The notes below the pieces were generated by a model. That model searched no databases. It was not told where the DNA came from and was given only the letters and a program-made list of their open reading frames with translations. Position numbers and translations under genes: made by a program. Of a DNA stretch of 64,000 nucleotides, positions 26,334 through 33,876 are shown piece by piece (position 1 is the first letter of the stretch; every line of letters starts with the position of its first letter). Source of the DNA: Natronomonas gomsonensis (lineage in GTDB: Archaea; Halobacteriota; Halobacteria; Halobacteriales; Haloarculaceae); contig NZ_JACAWU010000002.1 in NCBI RefSeq assembly GCF_013391635.1, positions 62,001-126,000 on the forward strand, given 5' to 3'.

Positions 26334-27125
26334 ATGGACATTGACGTCCTCGACCGTGGCCGTATCCACGCTGATTTGAACTTCGCTTTGGACGGCGAAG
26401 TCGCCGCCGTCCACAGCGACCCCAACCCCGACCTCCAGTACACCGAGTTCGCCGTCTGGAACCTCGTCGTCGACCACCCCGAGGCGACGATTCTGTGGGA
26501 CACCGGCTCCCACCCGGAGGCGGCCGACGGCTACTGGCCCGGCCCGCTGTACGAAGCCTTCGCCCACCCCGACGCCGAAGACCGGGACCTCGAAACCGCC
26601 CTCTCGGATGTCGGCTACGCGGTCGAGGACATCGACTGTGTGATTCAGTCACACCTCCATCTCGATCACGCCGGCGGCCTGTATCACTTCGATGGAACGG
26701 ACGTGCCCATCTACGTCCACCGCCGGGAACTCGAACACGCCTACCTGTCGGCGAAATCGACGGCTGGCGGCAACGCCTACCTCGCCTCCGATTTCGACCA
26801 CGAGTTGAACTGGCAAGTCGTCGACCAGCCGCGATACCAACTGTTCGACGGCGTCGAGTTACTGCACCTGCCGGGACACACCCCCGGACTGCTCGGCGCG
26901 CTGTTCGAACGCGAACGCCGGGAGAACGTCCTCGTCGCCGGTGACGAGGCGTTTCTCGCGCCCAACTACGAGGAAGGACGGTCGATGGGCGCCAGCCTGC
27001 TGTACGATTCCCGCGCCTACGAGGAGAGCCGCGAGTTCCTGAAGGACCTCGAACGGCGCTACGACGCCCGCGTCATCTACGGCCACGACCCCGAGCAGTT
27101 CGAGCGGATTCGCGACGGGCTCTAG
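26334..27125 (+). CDS. Metallo-beta-lactamase-fold hydrolase, N-acyl homoserine lactonase-like
   Basis: This 263-residue protein has the HxHxDH motif as SHLHLDHAGG (H107, H109, D111, H112), a further His in LPGHTPG, an Asp in VAGDEAFL and a final His in IYGHDPEQ. The length and N-terminal layout match AttM/AiiB-type lactonases rather than glyoxalases. It hydrolyses a lactone or ester of unknown identity. It lies 42 bases after the acyl-CoA dehydrogenase. Its stop overlaps the stop region of the convergent KaiC-like gene by 4 bases. Confidence 0.85.
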   Translation: MDIDVLDRGRIHADLNFALDGEVAAVHSDPNPDLQYTEFAVWNLVVDHPEATILWDTGSHPEAADGYWPGPLYEAFAHPDAEDRDLETALSDVGYAVEDIDCVIQSHLHLDHAGGLYHFDGTDVPIYVHRRELEHAYLSAKSTAGGNAYLASDFDHELNWQVVDQPRYQLFDGVELLHLPGHTPGLLGALFERERRENVLVAGDEAFLAPNYEEGRSMGASLLYDSRAYEESREFLKDLERRYDARVIYGHDPEQFERIRDGL

Positions 27126-27667
27126 CGCGGCTGCCAGCCTTCGGGGGCGCCCGGTGCGTCGACTCGGGCGCGCTCGCCGTCGGCGTCGAGTTCGATGCGG
27201 CCGTCGAACAACTGTTCGAACGTTCGGACGGTCTGTTCGTGGTGGGCGTCGGGCGTCATCGCGAACACGCCGAGGCCGTCGTTGCGGCGGATGTGGGCCG
27301 TCAGTACGCTGAGAAACCGGAATACGGAGGCGTCCTCGGCGTAGTACAACAGCGTCGTCACCGAGTCGATGAAGACGGCCGGGGACGACGAGCGCTTCAG
27401 GAACTCCGAGACGGGCATCGAAATCCCCGTCAGGTCTCCCGGCGTGCTCACGCCGTCGCTCGTCGGCGTACAGTAGAGCACCGACGACAGCGACGCCGTC
27501 GCCTCGGTCGGCGTCGCGTCCTCGCCGTGTGTCGCCGAGACGAGCAGTGTCTCGTCGGCTCGGTCGGCGCCGACGGCGTTGCTGAACGCCGTCACGCCGC
27601 CCATGGGTGGCGCATACAGGATGTAGCTGCTGGCTTCGCCGGCGAGCCACTCGGAGATAGATGCCAC
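27122..27667 (-). CDS. KaiC/RAD55-like protein lacking a functional Walker A (DUF7504-like)
   Basis: This 181-residue protein has the RecA/KaiC-like core. A Walker B-like strand AVFIDSVTTLLYY is at about residue 95. At the Walker A position it reads YAPPMGGVTAFS and lacks the GK[ST] triad, so nucleotide hydrolysis is doubtful. Such haloarchaeal proteins may be regulatory. The start is GTG (27667). A TATA-like ACTTTGCG is 28 bases upstream. It lies 63 bases downstream of the RND exporter gene on the same strand and may be co-regulated. Confidence 0.72.
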   Translation of the reverse strand: MASISEWLAGEASSYILYAPPMGGVTAFSNAVGADRADETLLVSATHGEDATPTEATASLSSVLYCTPTSDGVSTPGDLTGISMPVSEFLKRSSSPAVFIDSVTTLLYYAEDASVFRFLSVLTAHIRRNDGLGVFAMTPDAHHEQTVRTFEQLFDGRIELDADGERARVDAPGAPEGWQPR

Positions 27668-27730: not shown

Positions 27731-30196
27731 TCACGCCGAGGCGTCGTCGAACACCCGCGCCCAGATGACCAGCACCGACGGCAACACGAACAGCGAGGCG
27801 AGATACGAGTAGAAGACCGACATCCCGGTGAGGACGCCGAACTGGCCGATGGCGGGGAAGATAGACAACACCAGCACGCCGATGCCGAACACCGTCGTCA
27901 GCATGCTCCCGGTCAGCGCCCCGCCGGTGCCGCGGACGGTCTTCTCGAGTGCCTCGTAGACGCCGCGGTCGCGTTCCTCGTACTCGTCGGCGAAACGGTG
28001 GACGATGTGGACCGAGTAGTCGATGCCGAGACCGATGGTAATCGCGAGGATGGTCGCGGTGAAGGCGTTGAACGACAGGCCGAACAGCCGCATCGACCCG
28101 GCGACCATCGCGACGGTCACGATGATGGGCGCGATGTTCGCCAAGCCGAGGGAAGCACGCCCGAGCAACAGCCAGTAGATGAACACGAGGAAGACGGCGG
28201 TTCCACCGAGGGCGACCGCAAGGCTCACGACGGCCGACTGGAGGATGATGTCGGAGACGGCCTGAAAGACGACGGTGTTGCCGGTCGCCGTCGCATCGAA
28301 ACGCTGGCGGTCGGCGATGTCCCGGGCGTCGTTCGTAATCTCCTGTTGGGTAGCGTCGGATTCCACCGAGTAGACGATTCGGGCACTCCGGCGGTCTTCG
28401 GTCATGTACTGGGCGGCCTGTCCGCTCGCCGGAGAGTCGTACAGGTAGTCGTACACGTCGCCGAGGTTCCGGTCGGGAACCCCGTCGTCGTCGATGTCGT
28501 TGCGGTCGACGAGGCGCCGGAACTCGGGGTCGCGCTCGGCGTGGTCGTCGATGACCGTGATGATGCTCGTCTCGGAGGCGTACCGGCCGTCCCGGACGAA
28601 GGCATCGGGTGGGTCCTCGCCGGCACGACGCATCGATTCGAGCGCCGCTGGCTGTTCTATCGGCCCCTCGACGTACACCGTCACCGTGTCGGTCTGTCCG
28701 GATTCGAAGTTCTCTTCGAGGAAGCTGATGGTCGCTGTGACGGTGTACTCACCCGGCGCGAGGGGTTCGGGGACGTAGTCGTAGTACCCCGGTGGGTTCT
28801 CCGGCGGGAGGAAGTCCTCGTCCTCGAAGGTGGTGTCGATGCCGGTCGCGTAGCCGGCGGCCACACCGCTGACGAGCAACAGCGCGACGACGAAGGCAAT
28901 CGGGGCGATTCGGGCGATTTTGACGCCGATGGTCTGGAAGCCGCCGAGCATCGACCCCTCCGAACCGAGGGGCGTGGTGGCGAACGTCGGAATCGGGTAC
29001 CGCTCTCGAGCGTGGTCGAGTTTCACCTTCGCCGCCGGCAGGAATATCCCGAACACCAGGAAGGTGAACACGATGCCGACGGCGGCGACGATGCCGAACT
29101 CGCGTATCGGCGGGAGGTCGCTCGTGAGGTTCGCCAGGAAGCCGATGACGGTCGTCCCCGTCACGATGAAGAAGGCGACCAACACCTGGTCGGTCGTCGT
29201 CGACATCGACTCGACGATGCCGAACCCCTTGACCTGCTCTTCGCGATAGCGGTTCACCGCGTGGATGCCGAAGTCGATACCGACCGCCAACAGCAGCGGT
29301 GGCACCGAAATCAGTATCTGGCTGAACGGAATGCCGACCAGCCCCATGAACCCGAACGTCCAAACCAAGGCGATGAGCAACGAGACCACGCCCAAAAGCA
29401 GGTCGGCGAGGTCGCGGTAGGCGACGAACAGGAACAGCGTGATGAGCAACACCGCCGCCGGGATGACGAGCGCGAGGGTGTCGCCGATGACGGCGCCGAA
29501 TTCCGCGGCGGTGATACCGGCACCGAAGACCGTGATGTCGCTCCCGACCGAGTTCGCGATAGTTCGAGCCTCCTGTTGAATCGGCGTCAACGGACTGGAG
29601 CCACCCTGTCCCGCGCTACTGGAGAGCCCCGACGGGATGTCGTGGCTCACGACGCCGATAGTCGCCGACGCCGATGCCGACTGGCGATTGTAGTCGTTCG
29701 ACAACAGCCCGGAGAAACGCGGGTTCGTCTCGTCTGCCCGTCGCACCGCACGCTGTATCTCGGTGTCGGTCGCCGCCTCGATGGCCTGCTGTTGTTGTTC
29801 GGGCGTCGTCGCTTGTGGGTCGAGTTGCTGGGCGACGATGCCGGCGGCGCTCGAGGTACTCGAGACGCGCAACCCCGGCCGGTCGGCCATCTGCTCTTGG
29901 ACCTCCAGCATCCGGAGCATCGCGTCCCGCGAGAGGACGTTCTCGCTGTCCTGTATCAGTTGGGTGCTGCCGCTGTCGGCGCCGAACGCCGGCGAGAACT
30001 TCTGGTTGACCTCGTCGAGCGCTTCCTGTGCCGGCGTGTTCTCGGCGAACTGCTGGGTGCCGGCGCTCGTCGAGACGCCACCGAGACCGACCACGAACAG
30101 CCCCGTGACCAGCAGGAACGCGATGATGACCGTCCCCGGCCGTTCGGTGATGTAGTGGTCGAGCCGGTCGATGTACGGCTGGTAGTCGACCGCCAT
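27731..30196 (-). CDS. RND superfamily exporter (MMPL/COG1033 type)
   Basis: This 821-residue protein has two repeated halves, each with one helix, a large extracellular loop and a five-helix bundle, giving about 12 helices. The conserved GIDFGIHAVNRYREE (mid-protein) and GIDYSVHIVHRFADE (C-terminal half) are the Asp-containing transmembrane motifs of MMPL/HpnN-type transporters. It would export a lipid or amphipathic substrate by proton or sodium motive force. Its start directly follows the stop of the COG1361 protein gene, so the two form an operon under the TetR operator. Confidence 0.92.
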   Translation of the reverse strand: MAVDYQPYIDRLDHYITERPGTVIIAFLLVTGLFVVGLGGVSTSAGTQQFAENTPAQEALDEVNQKFSPAFGADSGSTQLIQDSENVLSRDAMLRMLEVQEQMADRPGLRVSSTSSAAGIVAQQLDPQATTPEQQQQAIEAATDTEIQRAVRRADETNPRFSGLLSNDYNRQSASASATIGVVSHDIPSGLSSSAGQGGSSPLTPIQQEARTIANSVGSDITVFGAGITAAEFGAVIGDTLALVIPAAVLLITLFLFVAYRDLADLLLGVVSLLIALVWTFGFMGLVGIPFSQILISVPPLLLAVGIDFGIHAVNRYREEQVKGFGIVESMSTTTDQVLVAFFIVTGTTVIGFLANLTSDLPPIREFGIVAAVGIVFTFLVFGIFLPAAKVKLDHARERYPIPTFATTPLGSEGSMLGGFQTIGVKIARIAPIAFVVALLLVSGVAAGYATGIDTTFEDEDFLPPENPPGYYDYVPEPLAPGEYTVTATISFLEENFESGQTDTVTVYVEGPIEQPAALESMRRAGEDPPDAFVRDGRYASETSIITVIDDHAERDPEFRRLVDRNDIDDDGVPDRNLGDVYDYLYDSPASGQAAQYMTEDRRSARIVYSVESDATQQEITNDARDIADRQRFDATATGNTVVFQAVSDIILQSAVVSLAVALGGTAVFLVFIYWLLLGRASLGLANIAPIIVTVAMVAGSMRLFGLSFNAFTATILAITIGLGIDYSVHIVHRFADEYEERDRGVYEALEKTVRGTGGALTGSMLTTVFGIGVLVLSIFPAIGQFGVLTGMSVFYSYLASLFVLPSVLVIWARVFDDASA

Positions 30197-32164
30197 CTAT
30201 CGCCGCCGACGGAGCCGCAGTGCCAGCGGTGCGAGCGGGACGAGCAACAGCGGGGCGAACCCGAGTGCGCTCGTGGGGGCAACCGACCCGAACAGCCCGC
30301 CGCTGGACTCCTGGACCGAGACTGGTACGCGATAGCTCTCCGAGAGCCGCGTCTCACCGGACGAATCGACGTACTGGAAGTCGACGGAGACCGGGTAGTC
30401 CTTCTGCATCGCCGACCCGGACGCCGACACGCGGAACGGCACCTCGACCGTCTCGCCGGGTTCGAGTTCGTCGATGTATGCCTCGTCGTCGCTCGTCGAC
30501 AGCGGCGAGGAGGCGAACAGTTTCGCCGACACGTCGGTGACGGTTTCGTTTCGCTGGTTCGTCACGGCGAGGACGATACGGCTCTCTTCGCCCGCCGAGA
30601 CGTTCGTGTTCCGGGCCTCGACGCCGAAGACATCGCGGCGCGGCTCGACCGACTGGCGGAACTGAATCGCGTCGGCCTGCCGTTCGTCGTCGTCGAGCGT
30701 CTCGTAGTTCGTCCGAAGCGAGAACTGCCGCGGTCCCGAGCGGGCTGCGCTCGCGACCTCCACGTCGAAGGAAACGTCGACCGATTCGCCCGAATCGAGG
30801 TCGCCCAACGCGACCTGAGGTTCGAGCACTTCGACGTTCTGGTTCGGTGGGTCCAGCGTCACGACGACGTTTTCGACCGCGTTGGGGCCCACGTTGGTGA
30901 ACGTCCCGCGGAGCGTTCCGTCCTGTGAGACCCGGAGTGAGGAGTCGACGTTCTCGAAGGTGAACGTCTGATCGTCGTCGGGGGCGACGCCGACGGTGTT
31001 ACGCTGGGTCGCGCCGGTCGTCTCGCCGGTGTCGTAGCCGATGGCCATATCGACGGCGTACCCACGGGTGCGTGCGTTTTCGGCGAACTGCCCGCCGACG
31101 GTCACAGTGCGCTGTTCGCCCGGTGCGATGCTACCGATGTAGGCGCTGGCCGAGTTGCTCGCGGCGCCGAACGTGAACCCGGCCTCCCGGGAAGTGAGGT
31201 CGACTGTTACGTCCTCGAGTGACTCCTCACCGGTGTGTTCGAGCGTGATGCCGATTTCGCCTTGCTCGCCGGGACCGGCCGTCGAATCGACTTCGGCGAC
31301 GGCGAGGACGCCGCCGGTGTCGGGGGTGACACCGACCGTCGAACGACTCGTGAACGGCACGTCGTCGTCGTCGGTGTACTCGACCGACAGCGATGCCGGT
31401 AACGCCCGGATGCCGGCGCCGTCGGTGACGCTCCCTGACAGCGTGACGGTTCGGTTCTCGCCGGGTTCCCAGCGGTCGACGTAGGCTTCACTGGAGCCCG
31501 AAGTGCCCAACTGGAGGTCCTCAGTGAGCGATTCGAGGCTGACGACCGCGTCGTTGGCGGCTGCCTCACCCGTGTTCGTCAAATCGAGTTCGACGGCCCC
31601 GCTGTCGCCCGGGGCGGGGGCGCTCACGTCTCGAATCTCGAAGTCGGCCTCCTCGTCGACGACGACTTCGACGGTGCGGCGGACGCTGACGCTCTCGTCG
31701 CGCTGTGAGAAACCACCGCGTTCGCCCACGAACGGCGTGTACTTGTATCGGACCCGAACCGGGACCTCGTAGGTTCCGGGGTCGGCATCCTCGGCGACGG
31801 TGAGTTGAACTACCTCGGGTATCGCGGCGCCGTCTTGGACGTTCCCGACGGCGGTTTCACCGCTTCGAGCAGTGATTGGGCCGTCGTCGAGCGGTTCGAT
31901 GGTCAGCCCACGGGCCGTCGTGGCGCGTTGCTCCACCTGAGGATTGCTGCTCCCCGACTGTATCTCGCCGCGGTTGATGACGCTCACCTGCAGTTGCGTC
32001 GTCTCACCTGCGGAGAGGCGATTGTCGCCGGCGGTGAGCGAGATTTCTGGTTCGCCGGTGACGTTGGCGGCGGCCGGCGCGGCGAAAAGTGGCGCGAAAA
32101 CCGAGGCAAAAAGGGCAATCGAGAGGACGACAGCGGCAATGCGGGACGCTTCCGGTGGGGACAT
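30197..32164 (-). CDS. COG1361/CARDB-like surface protein, partner of the RND exporter
   Basis: From the ATG ending at 32164 the protein has 655 residues. It has a signal peptide with a hydrophobic run (IAAVVLSIALFASVFAPLFA), repeated beta-sandwich units (each with a pattern like LEPGETVEVPF and VTNxGxE), and a C-terminal membrane helix plus RLRRRR. Such NEW1/CARDB proteins are commonly encoded with COG1033 exporters in archaea and probably act as an extracellular adaptor. A longer start at 32338 is open and fits the TATA spacing, but its first 58 residues are Arg-rich and precede the signal peptide. Confidence 0.85.
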   Translation of the reverse strand: MSPPEASRIAAVVLSIALFASVFAPLFAAPAAANVTGEPEISLTAGDNRLSAGETTQLQVSVINRGEIQSGSSNPQVEQRATTARGLTIEPLDDGPITARSGETAVGNVQDGAAIPEVVQLTVAEDADPGTYEVPVRVRYKYTPFVGERGGFSQRDESVSVRRTVEVVVDEEADFEIRDVSAPAPGDSGAVELDLTNTGEAAANDAVVSLESLTEDLQLGTSGSSEAYVDRWEPGENRTVTLSGSVTDGAGIRALPASLSVEYTDDDDVPFTSRSTVGVTPDTGGVLAVAEVDSTAGPGEQGEIGITLEHTGEESLEDVTVDLTSREAGFTFGAASNSASAYIGSIAPGEQRTVTVGGQFAENARTRGYAVDMAIGYDTGETTGATQRNTVGVAPDDDQTFTFENVDSSLRVSQDGTLRGTFTNVGPNAVENVVVTLDPPNQNVEVLEPQVALGDLDSGESVDVSFDVEVASAARSGPRQFSLRTNYETLDDDERQADAIQFRQSVEPRRDVFGVEARNTNVSAGEESRIVLAVTNQRNETVTDVSAKLFASSPLSTSDDEAYIDELEPGETVEVPFRVSASGSAMQKDYPVSVDFQYVDSSGETRLSESYRVPVSVQESSGGLFGSVAPTSALGFAPLLLVPLAPLALRLRRRR

Positions 32165-32342
32165 ACATCGATACAGTCCCGCTGTCCACTTAGTTACCCG
32201 TCCAACGAGGGGAGAACCCGTCCGCACGTCGGAAGCAGCCGCTTTCCGATGCCGCTTCTCGTGGGGGGTTCCGCCTCCGTTCGGTCCCGGTTCCCGCTGG
32301 GGTCGGTCGCCGTCGGCTTCGCGACGGATTCGGCTCATGGAC

Positions 32343-32362
32343 TACCTACCGTTCGGTAGGTA
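32343..32362. promoter_or_regulatory. Palindromic operator, probable TetR binding site
   Basis: The 20-base element is a perfect inverted repeat of 9-base arms, TACCTACCG and CGGTAGGTA, around a central TT. It overlaps the minus-strand TATA-like CATAATTA (32361-32368) that should start transcription of the COG1361/RND operon. The TetR gene ends at 32404, 41 bases away. Binding here would block TFB/TBP access, a standard repression geometry. Confidence 0.8.
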
Positions 32363-32403
32363 ATTATGGGTTCTGATTCCGGCGTTTCTCCACGACCGTC
32401 GGG

Positions 32404-33057
32404 TCACACCCGACTGCCCTCGCCGTCGGCCACGAGACGACTGTCGATATACGCATCCAGTTCTGTGCGCGCCGATTCGAGTGCTCCTTCGTCGCTGGTC
32501 GCTGCACGGAAGATGACTCCTTCGATGTTGTACAGCAAGTATTCGGCGACACCGTGGCTGTCGACTGGCTGAAAGACGCCCTCCTCGATACCGCGGTCGA
32601 TCAAGCCGGCCAGTTCGGCCTCGATGCGCCGTTCGCTCTCGGTGAAGTGCTGTCGGTAGGCCTCGTCGTGTGCCGCTTGGGCTCGGAGTTCGACGTACGC
32701 GCGGGCGAAATCGGGCGTCATGAACGTGGCCTCCTCGTCGCCGGCGGCATCGGAGACGTTCAGGAAAAACGAGTCGAGGGCGGTCCGGAGGTCCTGTTCG
32801 GCGTCGCCGTGTTCATCGAGGGGAAACACGTCGACCAGCCGCTCCGTCAGGAAATCGAGAAACGCCTTCAGCAGGTCGTCCTTCCCGTCGTAGTGGTAGT
32901 ACAGCGACGCTTTCTTGATGCCGACCCGGTCGGCGACGCGTTGCATCGAGAGGCCGTCGTAGCCGCGCACACAGAGGATTCCGTAGGTCGCCCTCATTAT
33001 CGACTGGCGGGTGTCCTCCGGGTCCGACGGGAAGATTTCGACTGGTTCGTGGGGCAT
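32404..33057 (-). CDS. TetR/AcrR family transcriptional regulator
   Basis: This 217-residue protein has an N-terminal TetR HTH at about residues 15-62. The typical sequence ILCVRGYDGLSMQRVADRVG is followed by KASLYYHYDGKDDLL. The C-terminal ligand domain is helical. It probably represses the downstream COG1361/RND exporter operon through the palindrome at 32343-32362 and is released by an exported lipophilic compound. The DICT-domain gene lies 68 bases upstream on the same strand. Confidence 0.92.
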   Translation of the reverse strand: MPHEPVEIFPSDPEDTRQSIMRATYGILCVRGYDGLSMQRVADRVGIKKASLYYHYDGKDDLLKAFLDFLTERLVDVFPLDEHGDAEQDLRTALDSFFLNVSDAAGDEEATFMTPDFARAYVELRAQAAHDEAYRQHFTESERRIEAELAGLIDRGIEEGVFQPVDSHGVAEYLLYNIEGVIFRAATSDEGALESARTELDAYIDSRLVADGEGSRV

Positions 33058-33125: not shown

Positions 33126-33848
33126 CTACTGCTCGACGAGGCCGTACGTCGATTCGAGGTGGTCGATGATCCAATCGACCGTGTCGGGGTCGTAGGTCCA
33201 GAAGCCGTAGAACGCACGCGGTTCCCGCTCCTCGGCGAGCAGCGCACACTTGTTGACGTTGACGCCGGCGCCGTCGTAGACGACGAACCACGACCGCTCG
33301 ATCTCGTCGGCACGTTCGACGTGAATCGTGAGGTCGGTGTCGTGTTCCGGCACGTCGGTGTCCGGAGCACCGTAGGCGTGGACGTTGAGACTCCCCTTCT
33401 CGGCGAGTTGCTCGTAGATGTCCATCTGGTCTTCGAGGATGGAGAGCTGTTGGAACCCCGAGTGGAGCGTCCCCTTCCCGACGCGCCACGCGCGGTCCTC
33501 GATTTCCCGAGAGGCGGCGACCATCTGCTCGATGTCGTAGGAGGTGAACATCGTCTCGTCGAGATGGTCGAGGATGGGGCGGTACGCCTCGCCGTCGAAC
33601 CCCGGGTCGGTTTCGCTGTCGTCCGGGTCCAGCACCTCCTGGAGGTTCGCAGCCGTGACGAACGTGTCGTCCTCGGAGAGGACGACGAACGAGGTGGGCT
33701 TGCCGCTGGGCGTCCGCTCGGCTGACACCGAGAGGTTCCGGTCTCGGAACTGCTCCCGGAGCGAGGAAGCGGCGCTGTCGGGTGCGTTGTAAACCGTGAG
33801 CCGCTTCTCGTGGTCCTCGACCCCCGTAATAAGCTCGCTGAGAGACAT
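33126..33848 (-). CDS. DICT sensory domain protein
   Basis: This 240-residue protein starts MSLSELITGVEDHEKRLTVY, the typical beginning of haloarchaeal DICT-domain (diguanylate cyclase/two-component-associated) proteins. It has no DNA-binding or enzymatic motif that I can see, so it may act as a sensor partner. The ATG at 33848 is preferred over a GTG six codons earlier because the TATA element CTTATTAC at 33877-33884 places transcription start near 33853. Confidence 0.82.
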   Translation of the reverse strand: MSLSELITGVEDHEKRLTVYNAPDSAASSLREQFRDRNLSVSAERTPSGKPTSFVVLSEDDTFVTAANLQEVLDPDDSETDPGFDGEAYRPILDHLDETMFTSYDIEQMVAASREIEDRAWRVGKGTLHSGFQQLSILEDQMDIYEQLAEKGSLNVHAYGAPDTDVPEHDTDLTIHVERADEIERSWFVVYDGAGVNVNKCALLAEEREPRAFYGFWTYDPDTVDWIIDHLESTYGLVEQ

Positions 33849-33876
33849 TCGCTCTAGGTTTACCACGCAATTCCGA

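Follow-up and report, generated by a model that had tools for sequence, protein, structure and literature searches.

What controls an MMPL-type exporter operon that lies just downstream of a TetR gene in a haloarchaeon, and does the inverted repeat between them act as its switch? The locus lies in a stretch of 64,000 nucleotides from Natronomonas gomsonensis, which we call the window. Its TetR-family repressor (217 aa; 32404..33057, minus strand) has an N-terminal helix-turn-helix (Pfam TetR_N, 44.9 bits, cut-off 24) and a C-terminal ligand/dimer domain (TetR_C_6, 46.7 bits, cut-off 27). The nearest solved chain, and the closest solved TetR by sequence, is 3crj_A ('Transcription regulator', E 3.1e-29), which we take to be a Haloarcula TetR protein. 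From the TetR fold, residues 47-56 are presumably the recognition helix; in helix comparisons this stretch, IKKASLYYHY (32890..32919, minus strand), is unlike all other collected helices except that of the related genome G194 (IEKASLYYHY).

The first gene of the exporter operon encodes a CARDB/NEW3 repeat protein ('COG1361', 713 aa; 30197..32338, minus strand, alternative start ATG 32164). Its product exceeds the Pfam cut-offs for NPCBM_assoc (62.1 bits) and CARDB (47.3 bits), reaches 21.8 bits against the putative S-layer model NF033506 (cut-off 110), and has a strong hydrophobic stretch at 63-93 and another near the C-terminus. The MMPL/RND-type exporter that follows (821 aa; 27731..30196, minus strand) contains the duplicated MMPL membrane domain in two stretches (Pfam MMPL, 124.9 bits, cut-off 20.5). 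Its best NCBIfam match, HAE3 (TIGR00921), scores 218.7 bits against a curated cut-off of 351.9; it is the closest named subfamily, but the exporter is not assigned to it. A DUF7504 gene (27122..27667, minus strand) may close the operon, and a DICT-domain gene (33126..33866, minus strand) upstream of tetR marks the same slot in relatives: the DICT, MMPL, DUF7504 and MBL-fold genes keep their places in G194, G201, G195 and G207. The MBL-fold gene (26334-27125) is convergent with the exporter operon, a position kept in these four relatives, and its product most resembles AhlS-type N-acyl homoserine lactonases (147.1 bits, cut-off 475).

An earlier note on this DNA had described a perfect inverted repeat with centre TT that overlaps a TATA-like box and lies 41 bases from the TetR stop codon, and the sequence bears this out. 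The palindrome TACCTACCG-TT-CGGTAGGTA occupies 32343..32362 (no strand assigned), its arms (32343-32351 and 32354-32362) are complementary at 9/9 positions, it shares 2 bases with the TATA-like box CATAATTA of the exporter operon (32361..32368, minus strand), and 41 bases separate it from the stop codon of the TetR coding sequence (33057-32404, minus). Along the minus strand, the TATA-like box (32368-32361) is followed by the palindrome, four bases, and the operon's first ATG (32338-32336). With this ATG as +1, the palindrome spans approximately -5 to -24 and the TATA box is centered at about -26/-27.

This arrangement fits a simple mechanism. TetR would bind the 20-bp site between the TATA box and the start and, once bound, would sterically block initiation at the exporter promoter; a ligand could then release TetR and lift repression of an MMPL/COG1361 operon that probably acts in export. 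The transcript would start leaderless near ATG 32338, which is plausible given that 72% of protein-coding transcripts in Haloferax volcanii are leaderless (PMC4983044). It is also conceivable that TetR activates this promoter or acts as a dual regulator in the manner of FasR, which is the best NCBIfam match of the protein. We regard this as quite unlikely, as the match (38.2 bits) is far below its cut-off of 330, like the other family matches of this TetR, and a protein bound between the TATA box and the start would obstruct initiation rather than assist it.

The leaderless geometry depends on where COG1361 translation begins. Comparing G201 with the window genome (G000), the first 58 codons differ at 10/13/16 sites at codon positions 1/2/3, and the remainder of the gene at 31/28/136. 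Because the first 58 codons do not have the third-position bias of the rest, the start codon, and hence the leaderless geometry, is not certain. Either the start is doubtful or this segment (32165-32338) evolves fast; the internal ATG at 32164 sits before the strong hydrophobic stretch, and the reading frame of the N-terminal extension is kept in G201.

Is the palindrome itself exceptional? If perfect palindromes with a gap of 0-8 and arms of 9 bases or more are counted, the window holds eight, and 20 first-order Markov copies average 5.45; this class is thus not rare by itself, and the roughly five expected by chance per window count against the operator reading. When the 65-base tetR-exporter intergenic stretch was shuffled, 44 of 40001 shuffles held such a palindrome. 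The case for an operator is built on comparative evidence, not on palindrome rarity. Among 146 family genomes, four contain the TACCTACCG motif at up to 2 mismatches. Three of them, all Natronomonas-type (the window genome, G194 and G201), have it exactly and at the promoter of this exporter; all 20/20 bases are identical while the surrounding bases diverge, and the TATA-like box reads CATAATTA, CATATTTA or GATAATTA. The fourth (G215, 2 mismatches) has its site beside no TetR, COG1361 or MMPL relative.

These data also bear on whether the palindrome could have arisen by chance or could form a terminator hairpin for tetR. Both the chance-level frequency of such palindromes in the window and the position just past the tetR stop speak for this, yet no T-run follows on the minus strand, the sequence is exact in three genomes, and G201 retains it without tetR. 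We consider the idea very improbable and reject it on conservation, even though the palindrome alone is statistically unremarkable in the window.

A search of the window's own genome at up to 3 mismatches found no copy besides 32343-32362, and so no further TetR target; neither the motif nor its halves occur in the 203 bases upstream of tetR, so that self-regulation by a TACCTACCG site is not indicated. Unlike the window site, the shared intergenic sites of divergent relatives suggest self-regulation. The degenerate pattern ACCKACCGNNCGGTMGGT matched in 5 of 194 class genomes. Two of these matches resemble promoter sites, namely that of the window and that in G104 (L006); at the other three, tblastn found no TetR, COG1361 or MMPL relative. 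The G104 site (L006, 1501-1518) is a perfect palindrome, ACCGACCG-AA-CGGTCGGT, between TetR and MMPL genes, yet the TetR there has an LSKST-type helix. Closer relatives of the window TetR (E up to 1e-44) were found in 10 of 391 class genomes; the window aside, only G194 (93%) exceeds 48% identity, and the remaining eight have KSKSL or LSKST helices. A contig scan returned 18 loci, the nearest in Natronomonas sp. CBA1123 (L067).

How common is the pairing itself? We surveyed 67 loci, which are the 69 highest-scoring MMPL-orthologue rows (down to 1024 bits) minus a second copy in G240 and minus G252, whose coordinates and score are the same as those of G251. TetR genes were located with a profile of 40 TetR sequences from the surveyed loci, the window TetR and the TetR of L093; matches to L093-type TetRs (L093, L126-L128) depend on the inclusion of L093 in this profile. 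A repeat-protein relative lies within the fetched stretch at 67/67 loci. TetR adjoins the exporter at 48 loci, 45 of them divergent and three co-directional (the window, G194 and L181, the last matching as a fragment of ~60 residues), and was found at none of the other 19. In G242:C1:2107331-2112341, as well as in G245, G246 and G249, two MMPL genes stand in tandem, and no TetR was found beside the repeat protein.

Three classes of exact palindrome occur in the promoter regions of these 67 loci: CGANCGAA-NN-TTCGNTCG at 22, TGANTGAA-NN-TTCANTCA at nine and TACCTACCG-NN-CGGTAGGTA at three. Operator class and recognition helix agree at 32/32 loci having both, an association that does not amount to 32 independent events, since the species compared are related. 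The xSKST helix goes with CGANCGAA-NN-TTCGNTCG (22/22), KSKSL with TGANTGAA-NN-TTCANTCA (8/8) and [K/E]KAS with the TACCTACCG type (2/2). We also searched eight paralogous loci, where all four with a KSTSL helix carry the TGATTGAA type and the four with KSVS or KSES have no exact motif. Counting against the operator reading, 33 of the 67 promoter regions lack an exact motif of the three classes, although 16 of these loci have a TetR (nine of the 16 with an xSKST-type helix). TetR at most related loci, together with the class/helix agreement, indicates that the pairing extends widely across the family. The window carries a recoded version of this common module, with tetR and the exporter co-directional.

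Our evidence comprises sequence, geometry, conservation, gene neighbourhood and the co-variation of operator class with helix. From these sequence comparisons, it seems highly probable that the adjacent TetR uses the palindrome as its operator and directly represses the exporter promoter. The earlier note had predicted such repression of the MMPL exporter from the geometry, and comparison lends strong support to one part of that prediction, a TetR operator positioned where it would block the promoter; binding and repression are themselves what TetR would be expected to do there.

In close relatives, the regulator at this slot has been lost or exchanged. In G201 (L087 7283-7371), tetR is cut to its first 20 codons, which join the TATA box at ATAAT, and the operator is intact with arms 12 bases long. 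As ATAAT occurs on both sides in the window, this would fit a deletion of ~633 bases between short repeats in G201, which may be recent because both sides of the junction are still recognisable. The retained operator counts against the operator reading, because long retention without a binder is not expected. In G195 (L092 5373-5530), the orthologous exporter sits beside a slot without tetR and its promoter carries TGATTGAACGTTCAATCA, an operator of the type that belongs to a paralogous TetR. G195 has only two TGATTGAACGTTCAATCA sites at up to 1 mismatch, one at the exporter promoter and one at the paralogous TetR/exporter; the window genome, G194 and G201 have the site at the paralogue only, and G207 has none at this threshold. 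The simplest reading of these sequences is that the paralogous TetR has captured the G195 exporter. In G207 (L093 6855-7469), the slot is occupied by a different TetR, divergently oriented and with the helix GIGTSTFYQFF, and similar TetRs are present in L126-L128.

It is worth asking whether these relatives point instead to a different regulator that reads the palindrome in trans, with the adjacent TetR acting elsewhere. A perfect and even longer palindrome (12-base arms) persists in G201 without tetR, and in G195 one operator is apparently common to exporter and paralogue, as such a regulator would predict. Against it, the motif accompanies only the window TetR lineage or what remains of it, the KAS helix is absent from the G201 TetR relatives examined (L089, L105 and L124), and the G201 deletion may be recent, its junction sides being recognisable. 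We find a regulator in trans improbable.

Together, these loci could form a live regulator-replacement series beside an exporter within one archaeal genus: the original TetR with a recoded operator in the window and G194, an orphan operator in G201, capture through a new operator in G195 and, in G207, replacement by an unrelated TetR, along with a TetR operator code that the recognition helix would reveal throughout the module. We give this interpretation about an even chance of being correct. Close relatives in which the regulator has been lost, swapped or captured make the rewiring of transcription factors and their sites testable in archaea. The module is a widespread, uncharacterised archaeal exporter for which short single-site operators can now be defined, and in high-salt hosts such 20-bp operators may prove useful as inducible parts when a ligand has been found.

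How does this locus compare with known systems? TetR-controlled MMPL exporters are known in bacteria, and the nearest case by function is ActR of Streptomyces coelicolor, where, as in the window, a TetR-family repressor lies beside an MMPL-type RND exporter (ActII). The ActR and ActII genes are divergent and their operator differs from the window's. Similarity to this bacterial system is low: the window TetR reaches 25.8 bits against 2opt (the ActR chain), and the exporter 132.6 bits against the actII MMPL model TIGR00833 (cut-off 874.7). Among the literature listings searched, which cover few subscription papers, we found no publication on an archaeal MMPL exporter under TetR control and none that links COG1361 with RND. 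The earlier note's view that such a system had not been described holds only weakly, in that no archaeal publication was found yet TetR-MMPL pairs abound in the family (48/67). The sole characterised archaeal TetR met in the literature searched is FadRSa of Sulfolobus acidocaldarius, a TetR-family repressor with a dyad-symmetric 16-bp motif, released by acyl-CoA (PMC6449355). FadRSa resembles the window TetR as an archaeal TetR-family repressor with a short dyad-symmetric site, the role of the window's operator being predicted; it differs in controlling a fatty-acid gene cluster rather than an exporter, through another operator (PMC6449355). Also close are the divergent TetR/COG1361-MMPL loci of the family, which have the same three genes and operator-like palindromes in the promoter region. 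Their operators are of the CGANCGAA or TGANTGAA type, whereas in the window tetR is upstream and co-directional and the operator is TACCTACCG. The system is ordinary in kind; the recoding of its operator and the turnover series are its interesting part.
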